Source: Bradymonas sediminis (lineage in GTDB: Bacteria; Myxococcota_A; Bradymonadia; Bradymonadales; Bradymonadaceae). From it: a stretch of DNA of 64,000 nt. The DNA lies in NCBI RefSeq assembly GCF_003258315.1, contig NZ_CP030032.1, positions 162,001-226,000 of the forward strand, written 5' to 3'. The translations under genes were made by a program, and so were the position numbers. Below the pieces are notes generated by a model. The model was not told where the DNA came from. It did no database searches and was given only the letters and a program-made list of their open reading frames with translations. This document shows, one piece after another, positions 25,003-33,141 of the stretch (position 1 is the first letter of the stretch; every line of letters begins with the position of its first letter).

Positions 25003-25473
25003 TTAGTTGCGGTGGGTGGCGGGGCTGGTGTGCAACTGCGGCGGCGTGGTGACGTCGACGTGTTTGATATGGTGGTCGCGCGGGGTTCCCAGGGCGATCC
25101 AGGCCGCGGCCATCAGCAAGATCATCGCCGCGGACACGGCCTCGTACGGGATAAACGAGCGGCGCGGCGCCTGTGGGTTGAAGAAGCGTCCGCCCGACTC
25201 GGCGCGGATGCGCGCCTGTACCTTGGTGAGAAAATCCGCGGGGAGCGGCTCGGCCGGCAGCGACTGCGTGGCGCCCATGATCTCACTGAAGGCGTCGAAT
25301 TCGCGGCGAAGTTCGGGGTCGCGCAGCAGTTCGGCGCGAAATTCATTTCGCTCCTGTGGGGTCATATCGTCTTCAAGATACGCGATAAATTGCATATCTT
25401 GGCGGGCGATATCCTCCAGGGAATCGAAGTCTTCGGGGAGTTCGGAGAGGTTGGATTTGGGTGATATGCTCAT
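25003..25473 (-). CDS. Anti-sigma factor (membrane-anchored)
   Basis: 156 residues. The N-terminal half (IARQDMQFIAYLEDDMTPQERNEF, ELLRDPELRREFDAF) has the helical layout of anti-sigma domains but lacks the zinc-binding His-x3-Cys-x2-Cys. It should therefore be a zinc-free anti-sigma factor. One membrane helix (YEAVSAAMILLMAAAWIALG) lies near residue 115, followed by a short His-rich periplasmic tail. It overlaps the upstream ECF sigma gene by 4 bases, the usual arrangement in which the membrane protein holds its sigma factor until a signal releases it. Confidence 0.86.
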   Translation of the reverse strand: MSISPKSNLSELPEDFDSLEDIARQDMQFIAYLEDDMTPQERNEFRAELLRDPELRREFDAFSEIMGATQSLPAEPLPADFLTKVQARIRAESGGRFFNPQAPRRSFIPYEAVSAAMILLMAAAWIALGTPRDHHIKHVDVTTPPQLHTSPATHRN

Positions 25474-26108
25474 GATTTACTCGCAGTATCAGTGAGTCCA
25501 GCGTTCTTCTTTTTAGCGCTCGCCGCGCCCGGGGCGTAGCGCGTGGCGACATAGTCTTTGAGCGCCGCGCGTGCCCGGTAGAGTCGGCTCTTTACGGTGC
25601 CCTCCGCGACCTCCAATGCCTCGGCGATCTCGGTGTAGCTCATATCCTCGACATCGCGCAGCACGACGACCGTGCGATGCTCTTCGGATAGGGTAGCCAG
25701 CCCGGCGTTGATGATGGTGTGCAGCTCGTTTCCCAGCGCGTGTTCATCGGGCTGGGCCATCGTATTCTGCGTGCCACTGGCCTGCAGGGTGGCGTCCGGG
25801 GTGTCTTCGAAATCCTGGTGCTTCTTATAGGAGCGCCGCTTTAGATATTTGACTCGATTGAGCGCTCGATTGCTCGCGATCCGGTAAATCCAGGTCGAGA
25901 ACTTCGACTCGCCGCGAAAAGAGTCAATATATTTAAAGACCGCTACGAAGACCTCCTGGGCCACATCCTCGGATTCCTCGCGGTCGCCCACGATGCGGTA
26001 GACGACGTTGAAGACCCGCTGCTGATACGCGGTCACCAGCTCGGTAAATGCGTCTTCGTCACGCTTTTTGAGCGCCGCAATTAATTGTCGCTCAGGTCGT
26101 GATATCAT
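25470..26108 (-). CDS. ECF (RpoE-type) RNA polymerase sigma factor
   Basis: 212 residues. Region 2 shows VTAYQQRVFNVVYRIVGDRE and ESEDVAQEVFVAVFKYIDSFRGE, with the STWIYRIASNRALNRVK -10 recognition segment. Region 4 shows LSEEHRTVVVLRDVEDMSYTEIAEALEVAEGTVKSRLYRARAALK. The linker is longer than average (about 40 residues, rich in Asp/Thr/Gln) and a Lys/Ala tail follows region 4. The downstream overlapping gene is its membrane anti-sigma factor. A GGAAC-N17-GTC site upstream suggests autoregulation. The likely trigger is envelope stress, by analogy. Confidence 0.95.
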   Translation of the reverse strand: MISRPERQLIAALKKRDEDAFTELVTAYQQRVFNVVYRIVGDREESEDVAQEVFVAVFKYIDSFRGESKFSTWIYRIASNRALNRVKYLKRRSYKKHQDFEDTPDATLQASGTQNTMAQPDEHALGNELHTIINAGLATLSEEHRTVVVLRDVEDMSYTEIAEALEVAEGTVKSRLYRARAALKDYVATRYAPGAASAKKKNAGLTDTASKS

Positions 26109-26383: not shown

Positions 26384-27655
26384 TTAGAAAAAATGCGGCG
26401 CGGCGAGAAGGACCATCATATTGGCGGCGGCGTGGTAGACCACCGGCGCGACGATGGAGTCGGTACGCTCGCGCAGCCAACCAAAGGCGAGCGAGGGGAA
26501 GAAGACCGACGCCCGGCTGATGAGCAGCACCCCGCCGATGGGGATGAGCACGTGTCCCACCGCGAAGAGCAGGCTCACGGTGAGGTTCTCGGCCGAGATG
26601 CCCAGGATGCGCCGGCGCGGTTTGGGCGAGGGTTTATCGTCGCCCGCGGCGCTCTTTGCGCGCCTTAATACGCGCATATCAAAGAAATGTTTAAGCCGCG
26701 TCAGCAGGTAGCCGCGATAGAAGAACTCCTCGGGCAGGGCGATGAACATGATCTCGGTGAGCAGCCATAAGAGGACCCAGCCCAGGCCGCGTTTGACCGT
26801 GAGGATGCCGCTGCCGCGCGCCTCTTTGGGGCCCTGGAAGACCGCGATCGAGTCGCCGGTGTCGAGGTTTTTGGCGTGCACCTTGAGCATCTTCGGCACG
26901 GGCTCGCCCTTGCGGTGCTTGAAGATGATCTCGCTGTGCGCGTTCGCCTGGTCGAGGCGAATCGTCGCGCGGTTAGCGTCGGCGCTGTGCTCGCGCATGA
27001 GCTTTGCTGGGCCGCGGATATCGGGGGCGAGCGTCCGGTTTGCCTGCAAATACAGGTCGACCGGGCCGCTGCCGGAGGCCACGCCGATGCGCAGCGTCGA
27101 GCCCTGTGTCCACAGCCAGACCCGACCATTGCCGATCGCCGTGGTGGGGGTTTGGGCGCTCGTGTTGGCGGGGTTTGTGAGCGCGTCCCAACCCGCCGGG
27201 CGGCCCTTTATTTCGAGGGGCCATTGGTAAAAATTATCGCTCGAAAAATCGAGCTCATTGCCCAGGATCTGCTGCTGCCAGACGGCGTAGCCGATGGCGA
27301 ACGGGCCCAGGGTGAGCGCCGTGAAGAGTAGCCCCCAGAGGATGCCGCGCCCGGCGCGGGCGTAGGTCAGGCCGAAGTGGTCGAAGTCGGCGCGCAGGTG
27401 GCGCAGCCAAAAATACGGCACGCCCACGAAGATGCTGGCGACGAGCACGTAGAGGTTCTGCTGCACCAGCGGCACGACATTGCCCAGCAGCACGACGCCC
27501 AACACGAGCAGCAGGCTGAGCACGAAGATCAGGCTGACCTCGCGCGCGATGGTCTTGGGCTCCATCAGCTTCGACGGCGCGCCGGGGGCGCTCTCGTCGC
27601 TCGACGCGCTGAGGTCGGCTTCTTCGGCGGGGCTTAATTTATCGAAATCACTCAC
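26384..27655 (-). CDS. CPBP-family intramembrane metalloprotease with large inserted soluble domain
   Basis: 423 residues. Four or so membrane helices precede residue 130 and more follow residue 290. The three CPBP (Rce1/CAAX) motifs are intact: EEFFYRG with Glu309, Glu310 and Arg314; FAVGHVL with His368; and HAAAN with His408 and Asn412. Between the helices lies an insert of about 160 residues (130-290) with no membrane segment and a beta-rich look (GRVWLWTQGSTLRIGVA, AVFQGPKEARGSGILTV). The insert is not part of the core family and probably sits on the outer face. It overlaps the upstream lipoprotein gene by 4 bases. The substrate is unknown. Confidence 0.9.
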   Translation of the reverse strand: MSDFDKLSPAEEADLSASSDESAPGAPSKLMEPKTIAREVSLIFVLSLLLVLGVVLLGNVVPLVQQNLYVLVASIFVGVPYFWLRHLRADFDHFGLTYARAGRGILWGLLFTALTLGPFAIGYAVWQQQILGNELDFSSDNFYQWPLEIKGRPAGWDALTNPANTSAQTPTTAIGNGRVWLWTQGSTLRIGVASGSGPVDLYLQANRTLAPDIRGPAKLMREHSADANRATIRLDQANAHSEIIFKHRKGEPVPKMLKVHAKNLDTGDSIAVFQGPKEARGSGILTVKRGLGWVLLWLLTEIMFIALPEEFFYRGYLLTRLKHFFDMRVLRRAKSAAGDDKPSPKPRRRILGISAENLTVSLLFAVGHVLIPIGGVLLISRASVFFPSLAFGWLRERTDSIVAPVVYHAAANMMVLLAAPHFF

Positions 27656-28983
27656 GGCGTGGCCTCTTGAGAATCATCGTCCGAAAGGATGACTTGTTGC
27701 ACCGCGCGCACGCTGCGCAAGATGAGCGTATCTTCGATCTGTACCAGTGCCAGGGACCCGTACGAAACCGGTGAAAACCCTTTGATTTCGCCGGTTTCTG
27801 GGTCGAGCGCGAAGAGGCGATTGGGGCCCGACTCGCGGCGATGCAAGAGATATAGAGTGCCGTCGAGGGCCACCACCGGCGCCTGGTCCGGGCCGATCTT
27901 GGCCGCCCACAGGCGCTCGCCGGTTGTGGCGCGCAGGGCGTGAATGGTGTCGTCGATCTTTAGGAGTAAGAGGTCGAGAGCGGCCGAGACATAGCGCCAA
28001 TTTGGGTCGGGCGGGCCGGGCAATTCAAGCGTCCAGGCTTCGGAAAAATCGTCGAGATTATAGGCGCTCAGGTGCGGCGTCTCGGCGTGGGCGGAGGCGA
28101 AGAATAATTGCCCCGGGTGGGCGGCATAGAAGCTGGAGCGTCCGCCGACGTTGTCGAATTTGACCGCGCGCATTTCGACCCCGTTATAGGGATAGCGGCG
28201 CGTCAGGCGCTTGAGGGTCGCGCCGACGAGGCTGGTTGCGTTGGGCTGCGGCGTGATGCCCGACCAGAAGGGCATGATGCCGCTCCAGGTCACGCTGCCG
28301 GCCTCGGCGTCCACGCAGCTTGCCTGGGTGCCGCCCTGCCACAGGGTGCCGAAGCAGACCAGGCGCGGCAGCAGCGGCGCGATATAGGAGCTTCGGAAAT
28401 TCGCGCGGAAGTTCATCGCGTTGGCCGAGCGGTCCATCTGCGCGTGCCAGGCGAGTTGGCCGTCGGGGCCGTAGGCGAGCAGGCGCAGGTCCGAGGCCTC
28501 TTCGGGGTAGGCTTTTGTGGGGGAGTCGAGCTCGTCGTTCAACTTCGCCAGCGGCGTCGGGTAGGCGATATAGCGCGTGCCATCTTCGAGGCGCTCATAG
28601 GCCTCGGGGGCGCAGCCGGCGATGTGCAGCGCCCGGCGCGGACCATCTTTAAGCGGGAATTCTTGTTTAAGATGCCCGTCTTCTTCAAAAAGTTCGGCGC
28701 AGCCGGGGAATTTCTGGCTGGGCGTAAGCTTCAGCTGGGTGCGCAGCAACGGGTCGGGCGCGCGCAGATCGCGGGCCTCAAGGGGCGCGTCGGCCTGGGA
28801 CCATTTGAGCATCTTAAGCTTGGTTGAGCCCTCGGCGCTCGACTCGGCGTCCGCTGCGCGTGCGCTCTTTTGGGCGTCTTTTTTGCAGGCTGTCAGCGAA
28901 AACGCCGTCGCGAGCAAGGCGAGGCCGACGACGGCGCGAAGGCGGTGGGCGCGGGGCAACTTTGGGGGACTGAGCGCTTTCAA
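27652..28983 (-). CDS. Lipoprotein with PQQ-like beta-propeller features
   Basis: 443 residues. A signal sequence ends with the lipobox SLTACKK (Cys33). The C-terminal half carries repeated beta-propeller-type strands with the usual phrasing of PQQ-like repeats: TIHALRATTGERLWAAK, VVALDGTLYLLHRRESG, RLFALDPETGEIKGFSPVS. Conserved Cys pairs (FPGCAELF, IAGCAPEA, LVCFGTLW, ASCVDAE) suggest disulfides outside the cytoplasm. Such propellers often act as binding scaffolds. The gene overlaps the CPBP protease gene by 4 bases, so the lipoprotein and the membrane protease are made together. Whether it is a substrate or a partner is not known. Confidence 0.83.
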   Translation of the reverse strand: MKALSPPKLPRAHRLRAVVGLALLATAFSLTACKKDAQKSARAADAESSAEGSTKLKMLKWSQADAPLEARDLRAPDPLLRTQLKLTPSQKFPGCAELFEEDGHLKQEFPLKDGPRRALHIAGCAPEAYERLEDGTRYIAYPTPLAKLNDELDSPTKAYPEEASDLRLLAYGPDGQLAWHAQMDRSANAMNFRANFRSSYIAPLLPRLVCFGTLWQGGTQASCVDAEAGSVTWSGIMPFWSGITPQPNATSLVGATLKRLTRRYPYNGVEMRAVKFDNVGGRSSFYAAHPGQLFFASAHAETPHLSAYNLDDFSEAWTLELPGPPDPNWRYVSAALDLLLLKIDDTIHALRATTGERLWAAKIGPDQAPVVALDGTLYLLHRRESGPNRLFALDPETGEIKGFSPVSYGSLALVQIEDTLILRSVRAVQQVILSDDDSQEATP

Positions 28984-28984
28984 A

Positions 28985-31900
28985 TCAACGACTCCAATTT
29001 ACGAAATAAGTCTCGGGCTGTTCGATCAGCGAGCGGTACATCGGGTTGAGCGCCAGGCAGGCGTGACTGCCGAAGACCACGAGTTTTTGGCGCGCCCGGG
29101 TGAGGGTGACGTTGAGGCGGCGCTCGTCGGCCAAAAAATCACCCGCGCGCCCGGTTTTGACAAGGCTCACCAGGATGATATCGCGCTCACTGCCCTGAAA
29201 ACGCTCGACGGTGTCGACGTCGATGCGCCCGGCGTCGTCGGGGATGCGCTCGGTGAGCAGGTTTCGGAGCAGCTGCACCTGCGCGCGGAAGGGGCTGACG
29301 ATGCCGATCGAGAGCGGGTTGGCAGTGTCTTCGCCGGCCGCCGGCATTGCTTTGAGCATCGCCTCAACGGTCTCGATGATGGCCTCGGCCTCGCTCTCGT
29401 TATGCCGCGAGTTGTGGCGTTTGGTGAGCAGGGGGATGTCGCGATTGCCCGTGTCCGAAAGTTGGTCGGCCACGGGGTCGACGTTGACAAAGAGCAGGGC
29501 GTAGTCGGGTTGGAGCAGCTGTTGGGTGGCGTCGCGATCGGGCGTGGCGGCCAGGGTGTCGAAGGCGATTTGGCGAGCGCTGACCGAGGTGTGGGCGCGA
29601 AGGTTGCCGCCGTAAAAGGCGGCGTTGGAGAACGCCATGATCTGGGCGTGCATGCGGTATTGCTCGTCGAGCATGACGTAGGGAAGCCGGGTGATAAGGC
29701 GCTCAAAGAGGCTCTGGTTGAGCCCGGCGCACCCCAGCGTTTCGAGGTCGCGCGCGTCGGCCGCGGGCAGATCTTTGGGGCGCATCTCGGCCACAAAATT
29801 CGAGTGCGCCTGCTCGTTCTCGACGATCGGGGGAAGTTGGCGGTGGTCGCCGACCAGCACAAATCGCGCGCCCAGGTTAATCGCGGCGAGGGTCATGGGC
29901 TCGGTGATCTGGCCGGCCTCGTCGACGATGGCGACGTCGAAGGGGAGGTCGCCGCGCTGCTCGCGCAAGAAGCTCATCATCGGCGAGTTGGCGCAGCGAT
30001 GCGCGGTGCTCGCGATGACGTTGGCGTTGAGAAGATCGTCGGCGAGCAGGTCGAGTGAGACGATCTCTTCGGCCATCTCGGTGGTGAAAAATCGGCTCGG
30101 CGTGCGCCCGGAGTCGCGCAGTTTTCGCGCCAGATCGGGGCTCTTTTCAATGCCGCCGACGCGCACAAAATCATCGAAACCGATCTCGAGCAATTTTAGC
30201 AAGATCGTGTCGACGGCGGTGTTTGTGAACGCGGAGAGCAGCACCTTTTTGCCGCGCGCGACGAGCTCGCGCACCGCGTGGGCGATAACGGTGGTTTTGC
30301 CGGTGCCGGGCGGGCCCTGGATCAGCGCGCCGCCGGCGGTGCTCACCGCGCGCGCGACCGCCTGCTGCTGGCTGGGGTTGAGCTGGGCGGTCTTGGCGTC
30401 GGGGCGAAAGCGCGGGTCGGTCTCGGACAGGAGTTTCTGGGCCTGCGCGGACTCCGGTTTGAAGAGGATCGTGCGCCGCTCGGCGCTGCTTCGCTCCAGC
30501 GCGGCGTAGAGCGCGTGGTGGGCCTGACTAAAGCCGATGCGCGCCGGCAATTTATCGAGGATCCAGCCGTCGCCCAGCAGTTCGGAGGCGATGGGGGCGC
30601 CGCGCGTGGACATCGTGATCTGGGTGTCGGTGTGCGAGGCGTCGCGCTCGACCGAGACGACGCGGCCGCGCAGAATATGCGAGGTGTTAAAGTCGCCGCG
30701 GTGGGCCAGCACATAGTCGCCGGGGCGAAAGATGCGCGGGTCGTCTTCGCCGTTGGGTTTGTGGCGAAACGCGATGGAGCCGAATTCGGGGTAGGCCGCG
30801 ACCAATTCAAGGTTGTCGATCGCGTCGTAATTTTTCTTTCGCTCCTCAAGCCTGGCCGGGTGCAGCACCGCGCCGAGTTTGACGGTCGCCGCCCAGCGCT
30901 CCATCTCGATGAGGCGCACAAAATGGCGGTGCCAGGCCCAGGCGCGGGTCTCCAGGGTGTCGACCGCGTATTGGGCGTCGCCTTGGGTCGAGTAGGCTTG
31001 CTGGCGGTGGGCCAGGCCCAGGACCGAGGTTTGTTGCTCGCAGCGGTCGCGGCGGAATTTGCAGCCCGCGGAGTTACAGGCGCGCGGGTTCTGCATAAAA
31101 TACGGGACGTCGTAGCTATAATTCGGGTCAACGAAGCTGCGCAGGCAGGCGATGAGTTCGTTGCGCGCGCGCAGGATGCGCCGCTCGCGCGCGGTGTCCT
31201 GCATGGGCGCGGCTTTGAGGTTGCTAAAGCGCGAGTAGAGAAGATGGCCGGTGATCTCGAGGTCGCGCTCTTCGGCCAGGCCCTCCCACAAGAAACGGTA
31301 GAATTGGAGCTGGCTAAAATGGCCGTCCCAGGCGCGCCCGGTCTTGAGCTCGATGATCTGCAGCCCGTCGCGCGGGTCCTGTGAGACCAGGTCGACGCGG
31401 CCCTCGATGCCGTAGCGGGTCGAGTAGCGCGTGACCTCGACGTTGCGCCCGCTCCAGCCGACGCGATCTTCGTCGCTGGAGTTGGCGGTGCGCTTGGAGG
31501 TGAAGCGCTCGATATTGGCGAAATGCTGGCGCGCATCTTCGTAGAGCTCTTTTAGGTCGGAGTCCTGCAGGCCCGCGGCGAGCATATCGAGGCGAAGCTC
31601 GGCGACGCGCGTCTGGTAGGCGGTGTCGAAGTCGGGCGGGTTGGGCTCGACCAGATCGTCGAGCAATCCGTGGACGAGGTTACCGAAGACGAGCGGGCGA
31701 CTCGACGGTCCGCGGCTTCGCTGGTCGACCAGGAATCGGCTCGTGCAACCCTCGGCCTTGAGCACATCGCTGACGCTCATCGGCATATGTGGCTCGAGCA
31801 CCGGCAGCGTATTCTCCTGGCCGGTCAAAAACGGTTCGCCGGCCGAGTTGGTGATGACGCGGGCGTCCAGGAGGTTGAGCTCGCAGCCCTCCCACACCCA

Positions 31901-32995
31901 TTTGACGCTCTCAAAGACCTCGGGGGTCTGTTTTTGGTAGAAGAACGCCCCGATGCGACCCTCGTCGCGGGTCATATAAAATTTGATGCCCGCGCCAAGT
32001 TTGGGGTGCTCGAGCAGCTCGATCTCGGAGACGCGCGCGTGGAGCAATGAGATGGTCGTCGCGCCGCGTTCTAACTCGGCTTCGACCGAGTTGACCGGGG
32101 CGGCGGGCTCGGCCTCGGCGTCGGCTGGCTCGGCGGGGGCGCCGGTATAAAAAGGTTGGGGGACCGTGGCCGTGATGAGATCGGCGACGCGCCCGGGGCG
32201 GCGGGTCGGATCTTCGTGGAGGGCGTTATTGAGGGCCGGGATGGCGAAGGCGGGGAGGCCGGTGAAGCTCGGTCGCATCGCGCGCGCCTGGTCGGGCGTG
32301 AGCAGCAAACGCAGCAGCAGCCGTGCCAATCCGTAGATATCGCTGGCGGGCGTGGCGTGGCGCATCGCGACCTCGCAGCGCAGCTCCGGGGCGATCCATT
32401 CGGCGTGCGGGCCGCCGGTGAGCGCGGCGAAGTCGTCGCCAATCCAGCAGCCGGCGTCGAGGGTGCTCAACTCGGCGTTCGAGGCGTCGAGCCAGGTATT
32501 CCACGGGGCGATTGACCCGTGGACCAGGCCGCGGCGGTGCAGCCGCGCGGTGCTCTCGGCGATCGGGCGCCATAATTCGAGGGCCTGCGCCCAGCTCAAT
32601 CGCCAGGCGTCGGGGTGCTCGACGTGGTCGCAGCCCAGGAGTTTTCCCGGCGGCATTTGCGAGGCGATCCAGACCATATCGCCGTCTTTTTTCCAATAAC
32701 TCGGGCCCCACATATTCGGGTGATCGACCCGCGAGATCTCGGCCAATAGCGGCGAGATGCGCAGCATCGACTTGCCCAGGGGCAGGCGTCGCAAGAGGAA
32801 GTCGTGCCCATGGCGCTCCGAATCGCCCCGGATCGCGGCGCCCCTCACTCGCCAGACCGGACCGGTCGGGGCGATATAGAAGGGGGCGGTTTCGGCGAGG
32901 TTTTCTGGAATTGAAAAGGTGGAGAGCATCGGGCCACGAGGTGCAAAAGTGGTGATTAACATCGCAGTTTGAATCGCGTATTCATCGCAAACCAT
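28985..32995 (-). CDS. Pseudokinase - Dna2/Cas4-type nuclease - SF1 helicase fusion protein
   Basis: 1336 residues from the ATG at 32995, chosen for its AAGGAGG site. Residues 50-275 resemble a protein kinase but look inactive: HGSIAPWNTWLD replaces the HRDxxxxN loop, with Ser for the catalytic Asp. TLDAG stands for DFG, and APEL and SDIYGLARLLLRLL are kept. Residues 410-655 form a Dna2/Cas4-like PD-(D/E)xK nuclease with His442, Asp535 (GRVDLVS) and Glu549-x-Lys551 (IIELKTG). Cys417, Cys640, Cys645 and Cys652 probably hold an Fe-S cluster. Residues 870-1335 are an SF1 helicase: GPPGTGKTT, DEAGQI, VGDHRQLPP, LDEQYRMH, VERFQGSERDI, NVTLTRARQK. It begins one base after the lipoprotein start codon region and likely acts in DNA processing or defence. 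Confidence 0.88.
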   Translation of the reverse strand: MVCDEYAIQTAMLITTFAPRGPMLSTFSIPENLAETAPFYIAPTGPVWRVRGAAIRGDSERHGHDFLLRRLPLGKSMLRISPLLAEISRVDHPNMWGPSYWKKDGDMVWIASQMPPGKLLGCDHVEHPDAWRLSWAQALELWRPIAESTARLHRRGLVHGSIAPWNTWLDASNAELSTLDAGCWIGDDFAALTGGPHAEWIAPELRCEVAMRHATPASDIYGLARLLLRLLLTPDQARAMRPSFTGLPAFAIPALNNALHEDPTRRPGRVADLITATVPQPFYTGAPAEPADAEAEPAAPVNSVEAELERGATTISLLHARVSEIELLEHPKLGAGIKFYMTRDEGRIGAFFYQKQTPEVFESVKWVWEGCELNLLDARVITNSAGEPFLTGQENTLPVLEPHMPMSVSDVLKAEGCTSRFLVDQRSRGPSSRPLVFGNLVHGLLDDLVEPNPPDFDTAYQTRVAELRLDMLAAGLQDSDLKELYEDARQHFANIERFTSKRTANSSDEDRVGWSGRNVEVTRYSTRYGIEGRVDLVSQDPRDGLQIIELKTGRAWDGHFSQLQFYRFLWEGLAEERDLEITGHLLYSRFSNLKAAPMQDTARERRILRARNELIACLRSFVDPNYSYDVPYFMQNPRACNSAGCKFRRDRCEQQTSVLGLAHRQQAYSTQGDAQYAVDTLETRAWAWHRHFVRLIEMERWAATVKLGAVLHPARLEERKKNYDAIDNLELVAAYPEFGSIAFRHKPNGEDDPRIFRPGDYVLAHRGDFNTSHILRGRVVSVERDASHTDTQITMSTRGAPIASELLGDGWILDKLPARIGFSQAHHALYAALERSSAERRTILFKPESAQAQKLLSETDPRFRPDAKTAQLNPSQQQAVARAVSTAGGALIQGPPGTGKTTVIAHAVRELVARGKKVLLSAFTNTAVDTILLKLLEIGFDDFVRVGGIEKSPDLARKLRDSGRTPSRFFTTEMAEEIVSLDLLADDLLNANVIASTAHRCANSPMMSFLREQRGDLPFDVAIVDEAGQITEPMTLAAINLGARFVLVGDHRQLPPIVENEQAHSNFVAEMRPKDLPAADARDLETLGCAGLNQSLFERLITRLPYVMLDEQYRMHAQIMAFSNAAFYGGNLRAHTSVSARQIAFDTLAATPDRDATQQLLQPDYALLFVNVDPVADQLSDTGNRDIPLLTKRHNSRHNESEAEAIIETVEAMLKAMPAAGEDTANPLSIGIVSPFRAQVQLLRNLLTERIPDDAGRIDVDTVERFQGSERDIILVSLVKTGRAGDFLADERRLNVTLTRARQKLVVFGSHACLALNPMYRSLIEQPETYFVNWSR

Positions 32996-33141
32996 GCGGT
33001 TCGCCCCTCCTTGTATGATACCGGAGGCGCGATGCAAAGTGCGGCGGCCGGGATTTCGCGGGATGACGCGGGTGGATGGCACATTCCGCCGGGCTATGGC
33101 ATGAAAAGCCTGCTGATAATCTGAAGATTTAGGACCGAATT

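Follow-up and report, generated by a model that had tools for sequence, protein, structure and literature searches.

The closest characterised enzymes to the protein studied here are eukaryotic DNA2 and its bacterial relative Bad, and the closest fusion of a kinase to an SF1 helicase is MkoA of the type I Mokosh systems. Bad, from Geobacillus stearothermophilus, is an Fe-S single-stranded DNA (ssDNA) endonuclease and a 5'-3' helicase (PMC7430649). Eukaryotic DNA2 has no kinase domain, and none is mentioned for Bad in PMC7430649. Mokosh type I, including its kinase domain, has been described (PMC11672841); its MkoA joins a Ser/Thr-kinase fold to an SF1 (Upf1-like) helicase in one chain, and a PLD protein encoded separately, MkoB, supplies the nuclease. 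In a 64,000-nucleotide stretch of the Bradymonas sediminis genome (the window), we characterised a gene encoding a kinase-nuclease-helicase fusion, hereafter KNH. Like Bad, KNH carries an Fe-S nuclease followed by an SF1B helicase, but it also has a kinase fold and lies in an operon with envelope proteins. Like MkoA, it combines a kinase fold with an SF1 helicase, but its nuclease is of the Dna2 type and in cis. We know of no other Dna2-type enzyme with a kinase fold in cis.

KNH is a single minus-strand gene of 1336 codons plus a stop (Table 1). The original prediction had proposed the three-part polypeptide without stating its strand, and this architecture is borne out: the plus-strand translation of the interval contains many stops, whereas the minus-strand frame is open over 28985..33082. 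The start is an ATG at 32995 with a Shine-Dalgarno-like AAGGAGG upstream, although a slightly later start is possible because similarity within the family sets in at about residue 20-25. The family has been catalogued before, and on its profile score KNH is a full member: NF040671 (PLuB_AAA, "PLuB system helicase-like protein") matches it end to end with 2434 bits (profile positions 1-1256 of 1256; curated cut-off, 999 bits). The window's protein agrees with this model in everything, but the model's name mentions neither a kinase nor a nuclease. A literature search with partial coverage found no use of the term "PLuB system"; the acronym probably stands for Persicimonas, Lujinxingia and Bradymonas. 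Neither the build of the family nor the stepwise manner in which its kinase was lost seems to have been reported so far.

Table 1. Features of the KNH locus (positions in the window; residues refer to KNH).
Feature	Position	Strand	Basis
KNH, 1336 aa, NCBIfam NF040671 PLuB_AAA	28985..32995	-	ORF and NCBIfam profile match
Pseudokinase domain, ~residues 40-290	32126..32878	-	Profile comparisons; MkoA profile positions 64-265
Degenerate catalytic loop HGSIAPWN, residues 159-166, HRD Asp replaced by Ser	32498..32521	-	Sequence, family alignment
Strand-rich domain between pseudokinase and nuclease, ~residues 314-400	31796..32056	-	Structure model
Fe-S PD-(D/E)xK (Dna2/Cas4 type) nuclease, ~residues 401-660	31016..31795	-	Pfam, alignment, structure match
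SF1 (Upf1/Dna2-like) helicase core, ~residues 861-1336	28988..30415	-	Pfam, alignment, structure match
Walker A GPPGTGKT, residues 894-901	30293..30316	-	Sequence
Operon gene 2: PQQ/BamB-like repeat protein, NF040673 PLuB_PQQ_rpt; lipobox-like N-terminus LLATAFSLTAC	27652..28983	-	NCBIfam
Operon gene 3: CPBP intramembrane protease, NF040674 myxosortase MrtP	26384..27655	-	NCBIfam

The fusion recurs well beyond this genome. KNH was found in 28 of the 57 genomes of the class, with the same three-domain order that the original prediction had suggested looking for: in 19/21 genomes of the window's own family (f1), in 3/5 and 6/6 genomes of two outgroup families (f2 and f3) and in 0/25 elsewhere, many of the searched genomes being fragmented assemblies in which absences are soft. 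These bacteria form a small group, the Bradymonadales and their relatives. Across 284 genomes of the phylum, the Dna2-type nuclease occurs solely within the fused protein; in one genome outside the class (G220), the match is cut by a contig end. That the fusion is an artefact of assembly or sequencing, with separate genes joined by error, can be dismissed with near certainty, since the domain order is common to 28 genomes of 18 genera, single-contig assemblies among them, and nothing was found in its favour. The window's own genome, assembled as a single contig of 5.05 Mb, contains one full-length KNH gene.

The nuclease and helicase parts appear fully equipped. The nuclease matches Pfam PDDEXK_1 (3.3e-13) and Dna2 (2.5e-6), and ten residues (C417, H442, D535, E549, K551, Q562, Y566, C640, C645 and C652) are invariant in all homologues that cover them, in agreement with the prediction that every acidic and Cys position is present. 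They include the four Cys of the iron-staple cluster (C417, C640, C645 and C652) and the E549-x-K551 pair. The helicase, proposed to be complete, matches Pfam AAA_11/AAA_12, and its tested residues are likewise identical in all homologues covering them. As in Dna2 and Bad, the PD-(D/E)xK nuclease lies N-terminal to the SF1 helicase in one chain. A predicted structure of residues 301-1336 (pLDDT 81.6, pTM 0.86) has as its best PDB matches three crystal structures of Dna2 (5EAN, 5EAW and 5EAX; E 3e-51, TM ~0.68), and this match spans the whole nuclease-helicase; DNA2 is also the best sequence match, at ~22% identity. KNH keeps the residues that Bad-type chemistry requires, for an Fe-S ssDNA endonuclease and a 5'-3' helicase, and should work like these enzymes.

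The N-terminal region is more divergent. Pfam Pkinase matches the window's single sequence only marginally (E 0.029), and an AlphaFold model of residues 26-320, built on an alignment of two sequences only, has too low a confidence (pLDDT 40) to be of use; its Foldseek matches, all kinases, are not counted as evidence because their TM is ~0.2. A profile built from 13 f1 homologues, none of which has a complete kinase active site, finds Ser/Thr kinases in the PDB (PknG, 1.4e-9), with 361 chains below 0.01, and the 60 listed of these 361 are all kinases or kinase-containing proteins. The same profile aligns with the canonical kinases of f3 at an hhalign probability of 98.7%. Profile comparisons, together with the evolutionary series across the three families, therefore confirm the kinase fold at the level of sequence.

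In the window's protein, the VAIK Lys is replaced by Arg, the HRD Asp by Ser, giving the loop HGSIAPWN as predicted, and DFG reads DAG. This loss is graded across the class. All six f3 kinases keep every motif in canonical form (G-loop, VALK, HRDLKPHN, DFG and APE; Pkinase 1.9e-41), the f2 kinases keep the Lys and DFG with the HRD Asp replaced by Gly, and all 18 f1 sequences (18/18) have lost both the HRD Asp and the Lys, which is replaced by Arg, Trp or His, some of them retaining DFG. The description of the kinase as dead thus holds for f1 but not for the fusion as such, which has a canonical kinase in f3. In the tree, 22 near-complete KNH proteins form one clade (100/99) in which f1, f2 and f3 are each monophyletic, with a long-branch warning at the outer join of the clade and no branching order set among the three; kinase-less Dna2-like proteins of Chloroflexota, Bacteroidota and Cloacimonadota fall outside it. 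The simplest reading of these sequences is that the kinase was active first and died later. The claim that such a domain lies outside the known enzyme family holds for DNA2, which lacks a kinase, but the family is catalogued as NF040671 and a kinase-SF1 fusion is known in MkoA.

Could the domain be a functionless remnant of evolution? It is the fastest-changing and least conserved part of KNH over longer distances, as a remnant would be. Nevertheless, it is present in every homologue that covers the N-terminal end, has conserved residues specific to the family and, in a trio of close relatives (G010-G012), shows a dN/dS of 0.11-0.17, similar to the 0.10-0.18 of the helicase (0.02-0.05 in the nuclease); purifying selection thus maintains it. 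We therefore regard the remnant explanation as very improbable. The proposal that the dead kinase senses a nucleotide is also unlikely for f1, since 18/18 sequences lack the ATP-binding Lys and the Gly-rich loop is unrecognisable. The proposed gating of the nuclease by the pseudokinase is plausible.

KNH opens a compact operon of three genes, followed by the PQQ-repeat lipoprotein and by MrtP, whose gene overlaps the PQQ gene by 4 bases, and it is this joint presence of a helicase-like protein, a PQQ-repeat protein and MrtP that characterises the PLuB system. In all 13 fully assembled f1 loci (13/13) the order is the same, and neighbouring genes either overlap or lie no more than 5 bases apart. 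MrtP was reportedly proposed as a myxosortase by D. Haft (2024). Cleavage of MYXO-CTERM proteins has been demonstrated for the related MrtX (PMC11980579). Distances of the three proteins co-vary (Mantel 0.89-0.94), as is also expected from simple linkage and is compatible with transfer of the whole operon inside the family. Just downstream of MrtP, an ECF sigma factor and anti-sigma factor pair (25003-26108, minus strand) lies outside the operon conserved in relatives.

This setting raises the possibility that KNH and its partners serve envelope or surface-protein sorting, in which case the nuclease-helicase would act on nucleic acid associated with the production or release of surface proteins. 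The conserved operon, the restriction of the PQQ protein to f1 (20/21 genomes, with no occurrence in the rest of the class) and 23 MYXO-CTERM matches in the window's genome are all in line with it. However, MrtP occurs in 56/57 genomes of the class and outside f1 does not adjoin KNH, and genus g3 lacks KNH, yet one of its genomes (G002) keeps PQQ and MrtP and another (G003) MrtP alone. In G002, no KNH sequence was found in the ~300 bases upstream of PQQ-MrtP, where the contig ends. Since g3 keeps them without KNH, PQQ and MrtP do not need it, and KNH itself is dispensable. We consider a sorting function improbable.

A second alternative is that KNH acts as an effector against phages, a Mokosh-like sensor of the kinase-SF1 type whose Dna2-type nuclease in cis replaces MkoB and degrades invading DNA. 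An immune role is possible because the kinase and helicase parts of KNH score against a defence protein, the PADLOC MkoA profile PDLC03920. A Mokosh type I pair from a rumen metagenome bin (L105:8231-12767; MkoA 8e-202, MkoB 1.9e-56) shares this layout, and its MkoA kinase loop, HGNINPKN, also lacks the catalytic Asp, so that Mokosh kinases, too, may be dead in some members. True MkoAs, in contrast, match PDLC03920 in one piece and have no Dna2-type nuclease in the middle, whereas KNH matches in two pieces with the nuclease between. No MkoB/PLD nuclease was found among the neighbours of KNH, and the HKD motif had no match in the window in any reading frame. On these sequence features, KNH does not appear to be a Mokosh protein, though Mokosh remains the main precedent for joining a kinase to an SF1 helicase. 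The original prediction had also raised the question of defence islands and held that the architecture would suit defence; none of the 10 neighbours of KNH has a PADLOC match below 1e-10, and the locus is not in a defence island. The gene appears to be vertically inherited, because it is single-copy, its tree follows the families and it is present in 19/21 genomes of its family; its operon is unchanged in 13/13 assembled loci and includes a myxosortase, and the genome encodes RecBCD. The genomic context thus lends the defence proposal no support and argues against a mobile gene of this kind, and we regard such a role, kept open by the resemblance to MkoA, as doubtful.

The reading that we prefer, with about an even chance of being correct, is that KNH is a chromosomal Bad-like enzyme of DNA repair or replication with an allosteric or docking pseudokinase. 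By analogy with Bad and DNA2, KNH would load on ssDNA and move 5' to 3', and its Fe-S-stapled nuclease domain would cut ssDNA. Its kinase fold may have been fused once, in an ancestor within the class, as a real Ser/Thr kinase that placed the enzyme under phospho-control; in f1 it would then have turned catalytically dead and been retained as a module for docking or allosteric control. The enzyme would most likely act in chromosomal DNA processing, such as the trimming of flaps, gaps or stalled forks, beside RecBCD. The operon indicates that the lipoprotein and myxosortase partners share its expression. That these partners have no obvious DNA role and that genus g3 does without KNH count against a function in repair. 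A replacement of RecBCD or AddAB by KNH was rejected, as the genome carries the genes for RecC, RecB and RecD at another locus (G000:C1:102612-112267), and for the same reason KNH need not be the main engine of end resection.

Other kinase-like proteins occur in these and other genomes. Several f1 genomes encode a second kinase-fold protein of ~530-620 aa within ~7 kb of KNH (L042:13615-15432, L043:9039-10865, L045:14633-16486, L049:14624-16450, L041:4890-6473 and L047:16-1815); a simple search found no standard H-x-x-x-x-P-x-N catalytic loop in them, and they could be further pseudokinases. The window's genome also encodes, at L145 (region of G000:C1:131714-132313), a ~605 aa kinase-fold protein with the loop HGNLKPEN, apparently without the HRD Asp. 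A possible unfused counterpart occurs in Thermogemmatispora, where an SF1 helicase ORF is immediately preceded by a kinase-like ORF (L099:7472-9037).

A bolder version of these ideas, which we hold to be rather unlikely, is that an active kinase once controlled a Dna2-type helicase-nuclease in cis and then died, leaving either a fixed allosteric gate or a site at which a separate kinase docks, in an enzyme tied to an envelope-sorting operon. If true, such a kinase-captured Dna2 would link DNA processing to the cell surface in a way not known elsewhere. Since one family presents intact, intermediate and dead kinases on the same nuclease-helicase, what a pseudokinase retains or gains when catalysis is lost is directly testable here, and a catalogued but unexplained family gains a concrete mechanism to test.
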